This document shows positions 2,373-27,738 of a stretch of DNA of 39,889 nucleotides, in pieces (the stretch's first letter is position 1; each line of letters starts with the position of its first letter). The notes under the pieces were generated by a model. The model was not told where the DNA came from, did not search any database, and saw only the letters and a list, made by a program, of their open reading frames with translations. The position numbers were made by a program, and so were the translations under genes. The DNA comes from a virus, in IMG/VR virus record IMGVR_UViG_3300022818_000071, positions 1 to 39,889 of that record; one strand, written 5' to 3'.

Positions 2373-2438
2373 TGGTATAATATTAGTATATAAAATATGG
2401 GGGAGCCTCAACCTCCCCCGCCTGTTGAGGAGGCAAAA
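2373..2438 (+). promoter_or_regulatory. HNH leader copy 1: extended -10 promoter plus kissing-hairpin RNA over the ribosome site
   Basis: The promoter has an extended -10, TGG-TATAAT (TATAAT at 2376-2381). Hairpin 1 pairs GGGGGAG (2399-2405) with CTCCCCC (2413-2419) around loop CCTCAAC. Hairpin 2 pairs GCCT (2420-2423) with AGGC (2431-2434) around loop GTTGAGG (2424-2430). The two loops are exact complements over 7 nt. The AGG of the Shine-Dalgarno site is in the second stem, so the closed form should hinder translation of the HNH gene at 2439. The same architecture with different loop sequences precedes two other HNH genes, at 16455 and 27207. Confidence 0.85.
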
Positions 2439-3029
2439 ATGGGATTTAAAAAAGGTTATATAATGTCTGAAGAGCATAAGCTTAAAATTGGATTAGCCAA
2501 TAAAGGCAAAAAACGTTCAGACGAACAAAATAAAAAACAAAGTGAAAATAGTAAAGGACGTATTCCCTGGAATAAAGGTTTAAAAGGTGTTCAACCTTGT
2601 TCAGATGAAACAAAACTTAAAATGAGCCTGGCTAAAATGGGTAATATAAATTGTTTAGGTTTTGAGCATACAGACGAAACTAAACTTAAAATGAGTGAAG
2701 CTAATAAAGGTAGAACAAGCTGGCTCGGGAAAACAGGTGAAAAATCCGCAAATTGGAAAGGTGGGTTAACACCTAAAATTTTAATAATTAGGCATAGTAA
2801 CGAAATAAAGGAATGGCGAACATCAGTATTTGAACGTGATGATTATACTTGTCAAAGATGTAGAGAAAGAGGCAAAGAATTAAATGCACACCATATAAAA
2901 TCTTTTGCTGAACATATCGAACTTAGATTTGAAGTTGATAACGGCATTACTTATTGCAAACCTTGTCATGAAATAGTTAGTAAGGAACAAATGAAAGGAA
3001 ATAAATATGCTATAAAAATTAAAGCCTAA
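2439..3029 (+). CDS. HNH homing endonuclease with NUMOD3 repeats
   Basis: The protein has 196 aa from ATG 2439, chosen because it follows GAGGAGG. Residues 1-100 hold several NUMOD3-like DNA-binding repeats (EEHKLKIGLANKGKK, DETKLKMSLAKMG, DETKLKMSEANKGR). The C-terminus is an HNH domain with CQRCRERG, then LNAHHIKSF and YCKPCH as zinc and catalytic elements. Such free-standing homing endonucleases nick or cut alleles that lack them and spread by repair. It interrupts the step from the neck genes to the tail tube gene and brings its own promoter and terminator, so it is a self-contained insertion. Confidence 0.92.
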   Translation: MGFKKGYIMSEEHKLKIGLANKGKKRSDEQNKKQSENSKGRIPWNKGLKGVQPCSDETKLKMSLAKMGNINCLGFEHTDETKLKMSEANKGRTSWLGKTGEKSANWKGGLTPKILIIRHSNEIKEWRTSVFERDDYTCQRCRERGKELNAHHIKSFAEHIELRFEVDNGITYCKPCHEIVSKEQMKGNKYAIKIKA

Positions 3030-4327: not shown

Positions 4328-6946
4328 ATGGCTTTCGACTTAGGTTCAATATTCGCTAGCGTGGGCGTCGATATTTCAAATTTGGATAAAGGCCTTATGC
4401 AGGCGCAAGTAAAATTAGCGGCTGCTGACAAGACTATCACTGGTTACGGGCAAAAATTAACCGCAGCATCTACAAAGATGATGATAAGCGGGGGGCTAAT
4501 GGTTGGTGCGGTTGCTGGAGTTGCTATAGCCGCCGTTAAAATGGCATCAGAGTTTGAGACGAGCATGAGAAACGTAAACTCTATCTCAAAATTGTCCGAA
4601 GGTGAATTCAAAAAACTTGGCGAATCTGTTGTTGGTATCAGCAAAAAGTTTCCGCAATCTGCCAAAGAGTTAGCCGATGGTTTATATGATATTGCTTCAT
4701 CTGGTTTTCAGGGTGCTGCTGGACTTAAGGTACTCGAAGCTTCTGCAAGTGCAGCAAGTGCAGGTTTAACTAATACTGCAACATCTGCTAAGGGAATCAC
4801 AGCTGTTTTAAATGCTTATGGACTTGAAGCTGAGGACGCTGCTGCAATATCAGATACCATGTTTAAGACAGTTGATAAAGGAGTTATAACTTTTGAAGAA
4901 TTATCCTCAACTGTTGGCGATTGGGTAGGTATGTCAAAGGCTGCTAATATAAGTTTCAATGAAGCCTCTGGTGCAATTGCGTACATGACAACTAAAGGTA
5001 TAGATGCTTCTGAAGCTGGTGTATCACTTCAAAGAATGCTCACAGGTATTATCAAGCCGTCTGAAGATATGGCTAAATTTATCCATAATGCCGGTTATGA
5101 ATCAGGCGAAATGATGTTAAAGACCTTAGGACTTACCGGCACAATGAAACTTCTTAATGATGAAACTGGTGGAAGCATTACTAAGATGATTGACTTGATA
5201 CCTGAAATTCGTGGTGTTCGTGGCGCAAACGCTCTGTTAGGTGCAGGTTATGAAGAACTTACTGGATTTATGGCGGACTTTAAAGATACTACCGGCGCAA
5301 CTGCGATAGCTTTAAAAGAACAATCCAAATCACTTTCATTTCAATTAAATATATTAAAGAATAACGGCACTGCTTTAGCAATAGAACTTGGAAATAAATT
5401 AATACCCTCTATAGCTGGGATTGTAAAAGGTTTAAATGATTTAAAACCTGAAACTAAAGATACAATCTTTCTTTTTGGTGAATTATTATTAGGAGCGGTA
5501 GGCTCAGTCGGTGGATTACTTTTATTAGCAGGTGCAGCAGGAAAAGTTAGATTAGCTGTTATAGGTCTAAATACTTCTATGGTTACTTTTGCCGCTACTG
5601 GTTCAGCATTCTCTAAATTTGCAGGTAGTATGGCATCTTTTCTTGCAGTATTTGGCGCACAAACTCCTGCTATCGGTGCATTTATTGATGACATGGGGTT
5701 GCTTAAAAATGCAAGTGGAGATTTGCAAGTAGTGGCAAATAATATGAAAGGTGCAATGCTTGCCAACCAAGCAAGTTTTGACTCCTCTGTTGCTTCAAAC
5801 CGACAATCAATAACAAATATACAAGACCTTTTAAAGACTTTTAATGAGGCTACACCTGCTACTATAGCTAAAATTTTAGAGTTAAATACTGCTTATAATG
5901 ATGGTTTTATTACTATCGGACAGTTTAACGATAAATTATACGATTTAACACTAACAATGGAGACTTCGGCAACAGCCGATGCAAAGAAAAAATACTTTGC
6001 AGATTTGACTACTGAGGCAATGAAAGCTCAGGGTGCTACTACTGCTGAAATAACCGCAGCACTTCAAGGAGAAACTGCTGCTACCGATGGCGCCTCAACC
6101 GCAACAGATAATCTTTACAGCTCTTTATTTAGTTTCTTTTTACTTTCCGCTGATGGTGAAACAAAAATAAGAGCATTAAATGACGCTTACGCTGCCTATA
6201 CTCAGGCAGTAAAAGATAATGGTGCAGCAAGTGATGAAGCTAAAACTGCAAAAGAAGAATGGATTAGGCAATTAGATACTGAAATTGGCGCGACACTACC
6301 TGCTATAATCGCAAAAACTGGTGAAATGACTTTATCTGATAGAGAATTATTGTATGCAATGCAGGATAACATTGATAAAGCACAAGAAGCCGGAGTTATT
6401 ACAAGAGCGCAAGCAGAGGAAACAGCAAATACGATTCAGTCCACTATTGATAATACTTTTATACCAGCACTTGCAAGAGGCGCACAGACACTTACTGAAC
6501 TTGGTAATATTGTTGCAGAACCAGAAGTAAAAGTAGATATAAGTGATGTAACATCAAAGATAGGCCATGTAGCTTCAATGTTATCAGATATTAATGGTAG
6601 AGTAGCCACAACATATATCGATACAGTTTCTAGAAAAATTTATTCAATGGGCGGTATAGTAGGTATGGCTTCCGGTGGAGTAGTTTTACCACAAGCAGCC
6701 TCGGGTATGGTTGTACCACAAACTGGCCGTGCTATTCCTATCCTTGCGCATGAATACGAGGATATAGTCAATACTTCACAACAGAGAAATTTAGCAGAGT
6801 GGATTATGGGTAAGGCTAATAGTAGACCTGATGGCAAGAGTACAAGCAATGAAGTAATACTACATACCATAATAAATTTAGATGGTCAGGTTTTATGGGA
6901 AAACAATGAAAAATTTGACTTAAGAAAATTAGGGGAGAGGGTATGA
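4328..6946 (+). CDS. Tail tape measure protein
   Basis: At 872 aa this is the largest gene, and it directly follows the chaperone genes. The N-terminus (LGSIFASVGVDISNLDKGLMQAQ) and the segment MASEFETSMRNVNSISK match the TP901-type core, which is rich in A, G and S. Hydrophobic stretches near residues 57-70 and 385-410 are membrane-segment candidates for DNA ejection. By the usual 0.15 nm per residue, the tail would be about 130 nm. A glycine-rich hydrophobic patch near residues 775-800 precedes the C-terminal beta region. The stop overlaps the next start by ATGA. Confidence 0.95.
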   Translation: MAFDLGSIFASVGVDISNLDKGLMQAQVKLAAADKTITGYGQKLTAASTKMMISGGLMVGAVAGVAIAAVKMASEFETSMRNVNSISKLSEGEFKKLGESVVGISKKFPQSAKELADGLYDIASSGFQGAAGLKVLEASASAASAGLTNTATSAKGITAVLNAYGLEAEDAAAISDTMFKTVDKGVITFEELSSTVGDWVGMSKAANISFNEASGAIAYMTTKGIDASEAGVSLQRMLTGIIKPSEDMAKFIHNAGYESGEMMLKTLGLTGTMKLLNDETGGSITKMIDLIPEIRGVRGANALLGAGYEELTGFMADFKDTTGATAIALKEQSKSLSFQLNILKNNGTALAIELGNKLIPSIAGIVKGLNDLKPETKDTIFLFGELLLGAVGSVGGLLLLAGAAGKVRLAVIGLNTSMVTFAATGSAFSKFAGSMASFLAVFGAQTPAIGAFIDDMGLLKNASGDLQVVANNMKGAMLANQASFDSSVASNRQSITNIQDLLKTFNEATPATIAKILELNTAYNDGFITIGQFNDKLYDLTLTMETSATADAKKKYFADLTTEAMKAQGATTAEITAALQGETAATDGASTATDNLYSSLFSFFLLSADGETKIRALNDAYAAYTQAVKDNGAASDEAKTAKEEWIRQLDTEIGATLPAIIAKTGEMTLSDRELLYAMQDNIDKAQEAGVITRAQAEETANTIQSTIDNTFIPALARGAQTLTELGNIVAEPEVKVDISDVTSKIGHVASMLSDINGRVATTYIDTVSRKIYSMGGIVGMASGGVVLPQAASGMVVPQTGRAIPILAHEYEDIVNTSQQRNLAEWIMGKANSRPDGKSTSNEVILHTIINLDGQVLWENNEKFDLRKLGERV

Positions 6947-16005: not shown

Positions 16006-16085
16006 GGGGGCGAGTCTCGGTCTCGACAGGTGTAAAGCCGATGTGCAAATCCTGGACGTGGGTTCAACTCCCACCGCCTCCACCA
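16006..16085 (+). ncRNA. Minimal tmRNA-like RNA: tRNA-like domain only, no tag frame
   Basis: The acceptor stem pairs GGGGGCG (16006-16012) with CGCCTCC (16075-16081) and includes a G3-U70-type wobble, the alanine identity pair of tmRNA. Discriminator A and encoded CCA follow. The T-arm is GTGGG-TTCAACT-CCCAC (16058-16074). The D-like segment GGTCTCGACAGG and the 3' CCTGGACGTGGG match Bacillota ssrA. A P2 stem CAGG/CCTG closes a 20-nt loop. Normal tmRNA has about 350 nt with a tag frame and pseudoknots; these are deleted here. There is no recognisable anticodon arm. It could be charged with alanine but cannot tag proteins. Confidence 0.78.
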
Positions 16086-16373: not shown

Positions 16374-16450
16374 TTAAGTTGTTTTTGTGATATAATAATT
16401 ATATAATAAACATGGGGATAGCGCACACTATCCCCGCCTATGTGCGGAGG
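16374..16450 (+). promoter_or_regulatory. HNH leader copy 2: extended -10 promoter plus kissing-hairpin RNA
   Basis: The promoter has TGA-TATAAT (TATAAT at 16391-16396). Hairpin 1 pairs GGGGATAG (16414-16421) with CTATCCCC (16428-16435) around loop CGCACA. Downstream, TGTGCG (16441-16446) is the exact complement of that loop and lies between CCT and AGG of the Shine-Dalgarno site. Stem and loop sequences differ from the other two copies, but pairing is kept. The upstream TTAAG and GTTTTTGTG are shared with copy 3. Confidence 0.87.
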
Positions 16451-16454
16451 AAAA

Positions 16455-17177
16455 ATGGAAGTTAAAAGATGTCATAAATGTCAAGAAGTAAAATCTGTTG
16501 AAGAGTTTTCTAAAAATAAGAGTACCCCTGATGGCTTACAGTACAATTGTAAAATTTGCCATAATCTAAGTGTTCGTGAATATGCTAAAGCCAATCCTGA
16601 AAAAGATAAAGAAACACAAAAACGACAATATAAAATTCATATTGTGGCGAGAAAAGAATATAATAAAAAATGGCTTGAAGTTAATAAGGACAAGGCTAAA
16701 AAAACTCATACCACTTGGCGCTTGACTAACAAAGAAAAAATAACAGAAAGAGATAGAAGATATCTAAAAAAAAATTGGGATAGGATTAAAGAATATAATA
16801 GAAAATGGTATCTTGCCCATAGAATATTAAAAGTAAAAATAAAAAAAGACCCTATATTTTATAGATTAAACAGTATTATAGGTTCAAAAATAGGCCATTC
16901 ATTACATGGAAATAAAAATGGCCGCCATTGGGAAAATCTTGTTGGGTATACAGTTCAAGATTTAATTAAACATTTAGAAAAACAATTTACAGATGGGATG
17001 TCATGGAATAATTATGGGTTTTATGGTTGGCACGTAGACCATATTATACCAAAAAGCTTTTTTGAATTTACGTCGTCAGATGATATAGAGTTTAAATATT
17101 GTTGGTCTTTAATAAATCTACAGCCTCTATGGGCAACAGATAATAAGAAAAAACATAATAAAATAATTTATATCTAA
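16455..17177 (+). CDS. HNH endonuclease, homing type
   Basis: The protein has 240 aa from ATG 16455 after CGGAGG. The N-terminus has a zinc motif (CHKCQEVK ... CKIC, residues 6-40) like other phage nucleases that begin with a Cys4 finger. The middle is a long basic helical region (residues 45-125). The C-terminus has the HNH core WHVDHIIPKSFF, LINLQPLWATDNKKK. It is placed between the small-gene cluster and the holin. The shared leader marks it as part of the same mobile family as the HNH genes at 2439 and 27207, although the proteins differ. Confidence 0.92.
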   Translation: MEVKRCHKCQEVKSVEEFSKNKSTPDGLQYNCKICHNLSVREYAKANPEKDKETQKRQYKIHIVARKEYNKKWLEVNKDKAKKTHTTWRLTNKEKITERDRRYLKKNWDRIKEYNRKWYLAHRILKVKIKKDPIFYRLNSIIGSKIGHSLHGNKNGRHWENLVGYTVQDLIKHLEKQFTDGMSWNNYGFYGWHVDHIIPKSFFEFTSSDDIEFKYCWSLINLQPLWATDNKKKHNKIIYI

Positions 17178-25614: not shown

Positions 25615-27129
25615 ATGTACGATCTAAACAATATTGTTAAGCTGGCTAAAATAACAGAACCGACAATTTTTTCAGATAATGAACTTGAAAAAATCAATGG
25701 ACTCATCAAGTTTCAAGATTACTATGAGAATCGCTGCTTTAAATATATTACCGAAGTTTACCCCGAATATAGACATGGTGGGAGCGAGGGCAAGGATTAC
25801 AGACCAGCTAACATTCCCCTTAACTATGGCAAGTTTATAATTGATAAGTTAGCAGCATGGCAATTTGAAATCGGCATTGACTTTAACTGTGAATCTGAAA
25901 TTAGCCAGAATAGAGCAGACGAGATTGAAAAGGATTTATATGATATTCATAAGAAAAATTTAATGGATATTAAACTTCTTCAATCTGCAACCGAATCCAA
26001 TATAGCCGGCAGTGTTACATTTAAATTAAAGTATGAAGAGGATGAGAAGTATCCACGTATTTTAATTAGAAACAGAATTGAAACATTTGCCATCACTGAA
26101 TTTGATGATTATGAGAAACTTGTTAAAGTTCATTTTATAGCGTTTCAAGATGAAAAAACTATATGGAAACAGACTTATGAATTAGTTAAAAATGAGGTAA
26201 CTAAGAAGAATGTATGTTTTATATCCGAAGAATTATTTGATACGAAAGATATTAAGACTCCTTCAAAGGTTATTCATGAAAGGCAGCCATTAGGATTTAA
26301 CGGTAAATGGTTAGACTTCTTACCGGTGTACATTATTCCTAACATGGCGCAACTTGGCATGATTGATGGCATATCTGAACTAAGGGATTTAATCCCTGTA
26401 ATTGATGAAATATGCAAAAAGTATTCCGATTTATCAGATTCATTAAGGTTTGATATGTTTGCTATAACAGTATTCCTTAATGCTAAGATTCCAGAGGGGC
26501 CAGATGGTAAGAAACGTCTTAAGGGGAAAGCAGGCGCAATCTGGTCTTTAATAAGTGATGGCCCATTTGAAACAGTTAAACCTGAGGTATTCAAACTTCA
26601 AGGCACTTCTAATATTTTACCAACAGTTCAATATCATATCGATAGTTTAATGGCTGCATTATTTGAGTTGGCTGAATGTGTTAATATCACACCGGCTACA
26701 GTTCAGGGCTTACCTGCATTGTCAGGCATAGCATTAAAACTATTGTTTGCTTCAATTATATCTAAAACTAATCGTAAGAATACTGTATGGGAAAACAAAC
26801 TTGCAGAAATCTATATGGGAACTCTTAAACTTAAGCAAATATATGAGGGTTATGATATACCGGAAGATTTAAACATTGAGATTATAACACATGTTCCAGT
26901 TCCTGCAAACGAATTAGAAGCAGTACAAATAGCAACAGAAAAAATTGCCGCTGGTCTTAGTGCAGTAGAAACTGAAATGAACGCTTTAGGTGTACAAGAT
27001 ACTCAAGCTGAAATGGCTAAAATATTAGCAGAGAAATTACAGTACGATAAAGTAATGAATGTAGACCAAATAAACAACCAAACTAATAATAATCCAGTAG
27101 ATAATACACAAACAAATCAAGGTAATTAA
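25615..27129 (+). CDS. Portal protein (SPP1 gp6-like)
   Basis: The 504-aa protein follows terminase by 22 nt. Its N-terminal region (FQDYYENRCFKYITEVYP, RPANIPLNYGKFIIDKLAAW) and central LFELAECVNITPATVQGLPALSG are the portal family signature in Gram-positive phages. A glutamine/asparagine-rich tail ends it. The portal ring is the DNA entry vertex. The HNH cassette lies after it, before the MuF gene. Confidence 0.92.
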   Translation: MYDLNNIVKLAKITEPTIFSDNELEKINGLIKFQDYYENRCFKYITEVYPEYRHGGSEGKDYRPANIPLNYGKFIIDKLAAWQFEIGIDFNCESEISQNRADEIEKDLYDIHKKNLMDIKLLQSATESNIAGSVTFKLKYEEDEKYPRILIRNRIETFAITEFDDYEKLVKVHFIAFQDEKTIWKQTYELVKNEVTKKNVCFISEELFDTKDIKTPSKVIHERQPLGFNGKWLDFLPVYIIPNMAQLGMIDGISELRDLIPVIDEICKKYSDLSDSLRFDMFAITVFLNAKIPEGPDGKKRLKGKAGAIWSLISDGPFETVKPEVFKLQGTSNILPTVQYHIDSLMAALFELAECVNITPATVQGLPALSGIALKLLFASIISKTNRKNTVWENKLAEIYMGTLKLKQIYEGYDIPEDLNIEIITHVPVPANELEAVQIATEKIAAGLSAVETEMNALGVQDTQAEMAKILAEKLQYDKVMNVDQINNQTNNNPVDNTQTNQGN

Positions 27130-27130
27130 G

Positions 27131-27201
27131 TAGTTTTTGTGGTATAATAAATATATAATAAAACATGGGGAGAGCCGATTCTCTCCCCACCTAATCGGAG
27201 G
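27131..27201 (+). promoter_or_regulatory. HNH leader copy 3: extended -10 promoter plus kissing-hairpin RNA
   Basis: Extended -10 TGG-TATAAT (TATAAT at 27143-27148). Hairpin 1: GGGGAGAG (27167-27174) with CTCTCCCC (27181-27188), loop CCGATT. Hairpin 2: ACCT (27189-27192) with AGGT (27199-27202), loop AATCGG (27193-27198), the exact complement of loop 1. The AGG of the Shine-Dalgarno site is inside stem 2. This is the cleanest copy. Confidence 0.88.
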
Positions 27202-27206
27202 TTAAA

Positions 27207-27737
27207 ATGATATTAGAAGTTTTAGAAGCAAAGACAAAAAGAAGTGGCAATAGGGCAAAGTGTAATTGTGATTTTTGTAAAACAGAATTTATAACAACCT
27301 ATTTTAAAGCTACATATCATAAACATCTTTTTTGTTCAAGAAATTGTTTTATTGAATATAAAAAAATAACATCATTAGGCGAGAACAATAATTTTTATGG
27401 CAAAAAGCATAAACAAAAAAGTATTGATAAATTTTTAGATTCAATTGGTGATAGTAGAAAAGGCAGTGGAAATTCAGGCTGGAATGGTGGTAGAGCAAAA
27501 ACTGATAGTGGTTATGTTTTAATTTTTATGCCTGAACATCCTTTTAAATGTAGAGGAAAATATATTAGAGAACATAGGCTTGTGATGGAGAAGTTTTTAG
27601 GACGTTATTTATTACCCAAAGAGCAAGTTCATCATATAAATGGTAACAGACAAGACAACAGAATAGAAAATCTTATGTTGTTTGCAAGTAATTCAGCACA
27701 TAAAAAATATGAGTCAAGCTTAAAGGTAGCAGTTTAA
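27207..27737 (+). CDS. HNH homing endonuclease
   Basis: The 176-aa protein starts at ATG 27207 after CGGAGG. The N-terminal 70 residues have a Cys-zinc module (CNCDFCKTEF, HLFCSRNCF). The C-terminus is HNH_3-like: YVLIFMPEHPF, YIREHRLVMEKFLGRYL, EQVHHINGNRQDNRIENLML. It lies between the portal and MuF genes, a common insertion place for homing nucleases. A motif between the domains (SGWNGGRAKTDSG) is shared with other phage HNH proteins. Confidence 0.92.
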   Translation: MILEVLEAKTKRSGNRAKCNCDFCKTEFITTYFKATYHKHLFCSRNCFIEYKKITSLGENNNFYGKKHKQKSIDKFLDSIGDSRKGSGNSGWNGGRAKTDSGYVLIFMPEHPFKCRGKYIREHRLVMEKFLGRYLLPKEQVHHINGNRQDNRIENLMLFASNSAHKKYESSLKVAV

Positions 27738-27738
27738 A

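Follow-up and report, generated by a model that had tools for sequence, protein, structure and literature searches.

The stretch of DNA analysed here, called the window, is the whole virus record IMGVR_UViG_3300022818_000071 (positions 1–39,889; 39,889 bases), which contains terminase, SPP1-type portal, tail and DnaB-like helicase genes. It also carries three leaders, c1, c2 and c3 (first hairpins beginning at 2399, 16414 and 27167), each in front of a predicted nuclease gene. In all three copies the first hairpin (S1), with a stem of 7–8 bp and a GGGG/CCCC base, is followed, after 4–5 nt, by a segment that is exactly reverse-complementary to its loop and continues into the Shine–Dalgarno sequence (SD). 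The end of the SD (AGG) pairs with a CCT located between the hairpins, and this second hairpin, in which the SD is buried, is called P3; the pairing of loop with loop is called S2. The positions of these features are given in Table 1.

Table 1. Positions of the leaders, their promoters and the genes that follow them in the window
Feature	Position	Strand	Remarks
c1 extended -10 promoter element TGGTATAAT	2373..2381	+	from the sequence; position alike in most copies
c1 hairpin S1, GGGGGAG-CCTCAAC-CTCCCCC	2399..2419	+	loop 2406–2412
c1 hairpin P3, GCCT-GTTGAGG-AGGC	2420..2434	+	loop is the exact complement of the S1 loop; SD in 3' arm
c1 nuclease, 196 aa, NUMOD3 + HNH	2439..3029	+	Pfam PF07460 6.7e-17, PF01844 3.7e-6
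c2 extended -10 TGATATAAT	16388..16396	+	
c2 hairpin S1, GGGGATAG-CGCACA-CTATCCCC	16414..16435	+	loop 16422–16427
c2 hairpin P3 (CCT/AGG) and SD	16436..16450	+	complementary segment TGTGCG 16441–16446
c2 nuclease, 240 aa, endonuclease-VII-like / HNH	16455..17177	+	PHROG 1035 endonuclease VII 1.1e-17; Pfam HNH only 0.065
c3 extended -10 TGGTATAAT	27140..27148	+	
c3 hairpin S1, GGGGAGAG-CCGATT-CTCTCCCC	27167..27188	+	loop 27175–27180
c3 hairpin P3, ACCT-AATCGG-AGGT	27189..27202	+	loop is the exact complement of the S1 loop; SD in 3' arm
c3 nuclease, 176 aa, HNH_3	27207..27737	+	Pfam PF13392 5.7e-13
c3 whole inserted cassette	27130..27738	+	between portal stop codon (27127–27129) and head-gene start (27739)

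A previous reading of this DNA, made from the sequence only, had described adjacent hairpins with exactly complementary loops at these three sites, and the sequence is as it claimed. The same reading placed the SD in the second stem, which holds for all three copies, although in c2 the stem is merely CCT/AGG, 3 bp (S1 is followed there by GCCTA, TGTGCG and GAGG, then by the ATG). The shared extended -10 promoter that it reported is likewise present, as TGNTATAAT, 26–27 nt upstream of S1 in the three window copies. A strict descriptor, which requires a stem of at least 7 bp, complementarity of the entire loop to a segment 2–8 nt farther downstream, and an SD and start codon in register, retrieves from the window exactly these leaders on the + strand and nothing on the − strand. 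It matched eight times in 2330 shuffled windows, that is 0.0034 matches expected per window compared with three seen.

DNA-pattern scans of IMG/VR, together with descriptor scans of fetched loci, yielded ten more intact copies in seven other phage contigs (L217/L101, L262/L237, L245/L263, L265, L270, L296/L284 and L291). The total of 13 intact copies has 11 different loops: CCTCAAC, CGCACA, CCGATT, CCTCGAT, CTCATAC (twice), CTCGTAC (twice), CCTCTAT, CCTAGTAA, CCTTAAC, CCTACT and CCATCAT. The gene at 16455 has its closest homologue in L101 (49% identity), and that gene is preceded by a leader copy of its own, with a different loop. A decayed copy is found at L245:11333-11951, in a sister cassette at the same junction as c1 of the window, where the ATG has become ATA and S2 is lost; its P3 is replaced by a triloop hairpin, CCTTAGTAAGG. 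The five GGGG/CCCC-type hairpins without S2 found elsewhere could speak for chance or the remnant of a terminator as the origin of the leader, yet the probability of such an origin is negligible, given the shuffle control, the ten further copies and the lack of a T-run after S1.

Covariation had been invoked as strong evidence for a real RNA structure when only three copies were at hand, which made a thin case; the case is now carried by 13. Because the MAFFT alignment of the 13 copies misplaced S2, its pairs were anchored by hand for counting, and an ungapped subset of copies was counted as well. All 89 S2 cells of the 13 copies are Watson–Crick, with no G-U, and 101 of the 104 S1 cells are Watson–Crick and three are G-U. 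For an RNA helix with such frequent changes, the complete lack of G-U in S2 is unusual. When tails were dealt among copies, 20,000 permutations never equalled the observed pairing. In the six ungapped copies all cells pair and 9 of 15 pairs changed on both sides, while sliding the partner by 1–3 columns leaves only 46–61% of cells paired. Several copies had been found using S2 as a criterion, and scans with neither S2 nor the nuclease in the pattern were therefore also examined. They gave ten distinct S1-type hairpins, five of them linked to a nuclease and all five with a complete S2 (7/7 or 8/8); the five that do not precede a nuclease have no S2 and match at 2–3 bases. In addition, a model built from seven copies, none of them from the window, recovers the window copies with E values of 5e-9 to 7e-8 in 193 kb. 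Compensatory changes were thus looked for in the ten further copies, and pairing is kept in them. Taken together, these comparisons establish, at the level of sequence, that the leader is a real covarying RNA structure.

P3 is kept in all 13 copies, with 3–5 bp and the SD paired in each. Its base shows an A-U/G-C exchange (ACCT/AGGT versus GCCT/AGGC), and constraint from the SD by itself could explain the remaining P3 pairs. S1 and P3 abut in nine copies, and are separated by 1 nt in three and by 2 nt in one. The letters that stay constant are those of the S1 base, the anti-SD and the SD, and the loop sequences vary. S1 plus P3, with the SD within P3, is the predicted minimum-energy fold of most copies; the predicted fold differs for c4 and, when flanks are included, for c6 and c7. 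This fold supports translational restraint, as in the leaders of T4 and Aeh1 discussed below. We therefore consider it probable that the leader of a mobile cassette hides the SD and restrains the nuclease, and that the copy-specific S2 reinforces or switches this lock. S1 (7–9 bp, GGGG/CCCC base) would sit directly on P3. In the stem of P3 the SD AGGY would be paired to the anti-SD RCCT, and the 5' part of the SD would lie in the P3 loop. Pairing of the SD would lower or delay translation of the HNH-type nuclease, and with translation restrained in this way the cassette might reside in any operon while no excess of a DNA-cutting enzyme is made. The perfect complementarity of the loops, specific to each copy, would reinforce the SD lock or switch it. 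By analogy with known phage leaders, we infer both that nuclease translation is lowered and that this is its purpose. Several observations speak against such restraint: the predicted fold differs in the copies just named, P3 alone is short, the promoter lies upstream of the whole structure, unlike that of T4, and the c14 leader is perfect despite a nuclease whose HNH motif looks damaged.

SD-sequestering hairpins have been described for I-TevI, I-TevII, I-TevIII and segB of T4 and for mobE of Aeromonas phage Aeh1; they are single hairpins, in which a late promoter starting inside the hairpin frees the SD (PMC2988022, PMC3014915). The leader described here resembles those of T4 and Aeh1 mobE in that an RNA structure covers the SD of a phage homing endonuclease, free-standing HNH genes included, and in all 13 copies a paired SD is followed by an endonuclease-type gene. 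Unlike them, it consists of two abutting hairpins with mutually complementary loops, and a single design serves three nuclease types. The promoter, instead of lying inside a hairpin, lies upstream of the whole structure, so that release by a later start, as in T4, is inapplicable. In seg43(25) of Aeromonas phage 25 a very stable hairpin lies directly upstream of the SD of a homing endonuclease (PMC2988022), with the SD free and no second complementary hairpin described, whereas the present leader has both hairpins. Its function is thus most likely a variant of that of known SD-sequestering leaders, with a new architecture in which a fixed promoter and anti-SD are tied to a freely changing pair of complementary loops.

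TGNTATAAT is present in eight copies and a TATAAT-like element in most others, with none evident in c13; the best promoter lies 23–33 nt upstream of S1 in most copies. The predicted own transcripts, which would start about 7 nt after TATAAT, and read-through transcripts would both carry the full leader. The idea that the ATGGGG before S1 opens a conserved leader peptide was dropped, as reading frames differ between copies and some have no ATG. With S1 stable and near the predicted 5' end, and with cassettes lying shortly downstream of the stop codons of highly expressed genes, the leader could instead be a protein operator, or an element that stabilises the mRNA or insulates it against upstream ribosomes or 5' exonucleases. 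This explanation is very unlikely, as it accounts neither for the P3 covariation nor for the complementarity of the loops. Moreover, the use of one leader design by three nuclease types speaks against autoregulation by the nuclease itself.

The suggestion that the leader might sense something fares badly: the conserved unpaired nucleotides that characterize a metabolite aptamer are lacking, both between the hairpins and in the loops, where a ligand site would be expected. Among known RNAs, preQ1-I type riboswitches form a compact pseudoknot over the SD, and HEARO/omega RNA is associated with HNH proteins. The leader differs from both in having no conserved ligand core and no Rfam match.

How S2 forms is a separate matter. 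The sequence-only reading had put forward a kissing pair within one molecule, with an H-type pseudoknot as the alternative fold. In a rigid and approximate A-form model, the two stems could both stay intact in a cis kiss only with a link of about 50–60 Angstrom, and 0–2 nt are present; as these cannot span such a distance, kissing in cis is sterically excluded, and that proposal is not retained. For the pseudoknot, in the same model, L1 has 0 nt for 10 Angstrom and L3 mostly 4–5 nt for about 37 Angstrom (with an 8-bp S1), and because both are too short several strong pairs must open; the fold is possible only if the ends of S1 and S2 fray. In all 13 copies loop 1 coincides exactly with the 5' strand of S2, and in ten of them the P3 loop coincides exactly with the 3' strand; this match leaves kissing in trans and an exchange fold in cis as two live options.

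Tentatively, S2 might form within one molecule, as an H-type pseudoknot that is under strain and alternates with P3. The result would be a translational switch with two states, which temperature, ribosomes or a protein may open or close. A phage pseudoknot operator is known in T4 gene 32, where, as would be the case here, pairing of a loop with a downstream segment of the leader RNA controls translation; that pseudoknot is a binding site for gp32, 67 nt upstream of the start, whereas here the pairing abuts the SD (PMC3014915). A crude energy estimate places the pseudoknot within a few kcal/mol of S1 plus P3, but it ignores the opening of several GC pairs that the short L1 and L3 impose, and a pseudoknot does not explain why S2 should stop precisely at the P3 stem.

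Alternatively, and this we regard as unlikely, S2 may form between molecules, loop 1 of one leader kissing loop 2 of another copy head to tail. The SD would then be open when mRNA is low, and the kiss would lock P3 when leader RNA is abundant; late read-through transcripts would also carry leader RNA. Apart from the steric argument against a cis kiss, pairing in trans would account for loops that are exact S2 strands, as full loop–loop helices with both stems require. The loops of co-resident cassettes mismatch, with 3–5 contiguous pairs at most compared with 6–7 for self. RNA oligomers driven by a pair of complementary loops are also on record for phi29 pRNA and domain III of bicoid mRNA, although neither is an SD leader and the pRNA loops pair over 4 bp and serve DNA packaging (PMC7357161). 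However, the privacy of loops within genomes is not significant, with only six within-genome pairs, equal loops recur between genomes (c5 and c9, c6 and c12), and ribosomes and RNA decay would compete with dimer formation. The strongest form of this idea, in which the flush two-hairpin rod is a self-addressed sensor of mRNA dose whose SD is locked by a private leader–leader kiss at its ends, seems distinctly unlikely. Such a sensor would buffer nuclease output against mRNA amount, protein-free and independently for each co-resident cassette, and if S2 does act between molecules, an mRNA would be measuring its own concentration.

Among intact copies, genome comparison shows the leader to be linked exclusively to predicted nuclease genes: all 13 precede HNH-type genes, which comprise NUMOD3-HNH genes, HNH_3 genes and an endonuclease-VII-like group whose members have a WHxDHI motif; this last group was assigned from PHROGs profiles and alignment, as Pfam does not recognise it. 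An endonuclease-VII-like gene without the leader is found at L323:18139-18759 (−); it has TATGTTATAAT 6 nt before its ATG, which would give a leaderless mRNA. In c14 (L296:4588-5116), the apparently damaged motif behind the perfect leader reads VHRENEIRDDATDG, compared with VHHINGxxxDNRIEN. The c3, c11 and c13 nucleases have similar N-terminal zinc-ribbon-like segments (CxCDxC) and differing catalytic C-termini, which suggests domain shuffling behind one leader.

The window, L296, L245, L262, L270 and L291 belong to related phages, in which the structural genes are syntenic. The cassette also occurs in another group of phages, unrelated to these, in which L217 and L265 share a different terminase/portal set. 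Occupied and empty sites can be paired at the portal/head, terminase/portal and tail-region junctions of related genomes. At the c3 site, between portal and head genes, the stop and start codons of L296 are one base apart, and the c6 and c7 junctions are empty in the window. The cassettes c10, c11 and c12, with differing nucleases, all occupy the terminase/portal junction, where the window has none (L270:8684-9309, L291 with S1 of c12 at 4701 of the reverse complement, and L296:1291-2017). As their loops differ, the idea that the loop is the address of the insertion site was rejected. Presence or absence at defined sites is thus polymorphic, as for free-standing homing endonuclease cassettes. 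The promoter part of c3 is 86–88% identical to those of c2 and c14, which lie at other sites, and 77% identical to that of c9 in the unrelated L265; c5 and c9 have the same leader core, while their upstream DNA and nucleases differ. Promoter, leader and nuclease have therefore moved together and have also been reshuffled. The earlier proposal that promoter and leader travel with the nuclease genes is thus borne out by the occupied and empty sites and by the shared promoter–leader sequence, which show, as far as comparison of loci can, that the three form a mobile cassette inserted between operon genes.

Several other searches yielded no further leader. BLASTN of the promoter–leader against 50,697 phage genomes returned only AT-rich promoter-like or short chance matches, for example around T4 motA; a strict promoter plus S1 pattern gave three chance matches only, and no leader was present among the 80 IMG/VR terminase matches listed. 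Bacterial contigs searched with the gene-2 family gave seven loci, none with a leader, and model R1 found nothing convincing in five of the corresponding genomes. Rfam matched no leader family in the window, where the only match was an unrelated tmRNA-like one, nor in six copy-bearing or flanking loci at E≤1, in agreement with the earlier reading, which had not recognised the leader as a known riboswitch or Rfam family. No prior description was found in open-licence papers, to which the literature search was limited, so that an earlier description is possible. On these comparisons, the leader is an unlisted RNA family tied to mobile phage nucleases. It adds a covariation-supported family to the few leaders known to restrain phage homing endonucleases, and makes testable the question of how a selfish nuclease can be dropped into any operon and yet be made at a tolerable level.

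Two further stretches deserve mention. At L210:3656-3700 an ORF that does not encode a nuclease is preceded by a GGGGATAG hairpin with AACCT and AGGAGGT after it; S2 is lacking there, and the stretch is possibly a simpler relative, or a chance occurrence. In the window, the tmRNA-like stretch at 16006-16085 (+) matches RF00023 with 62.9 bits over only 80 nt; ARAGORN does not call it, and a search of a small sub-window also missed it. It has tRNA-like ends, including CCACCA, and no room for a tag region, and may be a mini-tmRNA, a remnant or an attachment site.
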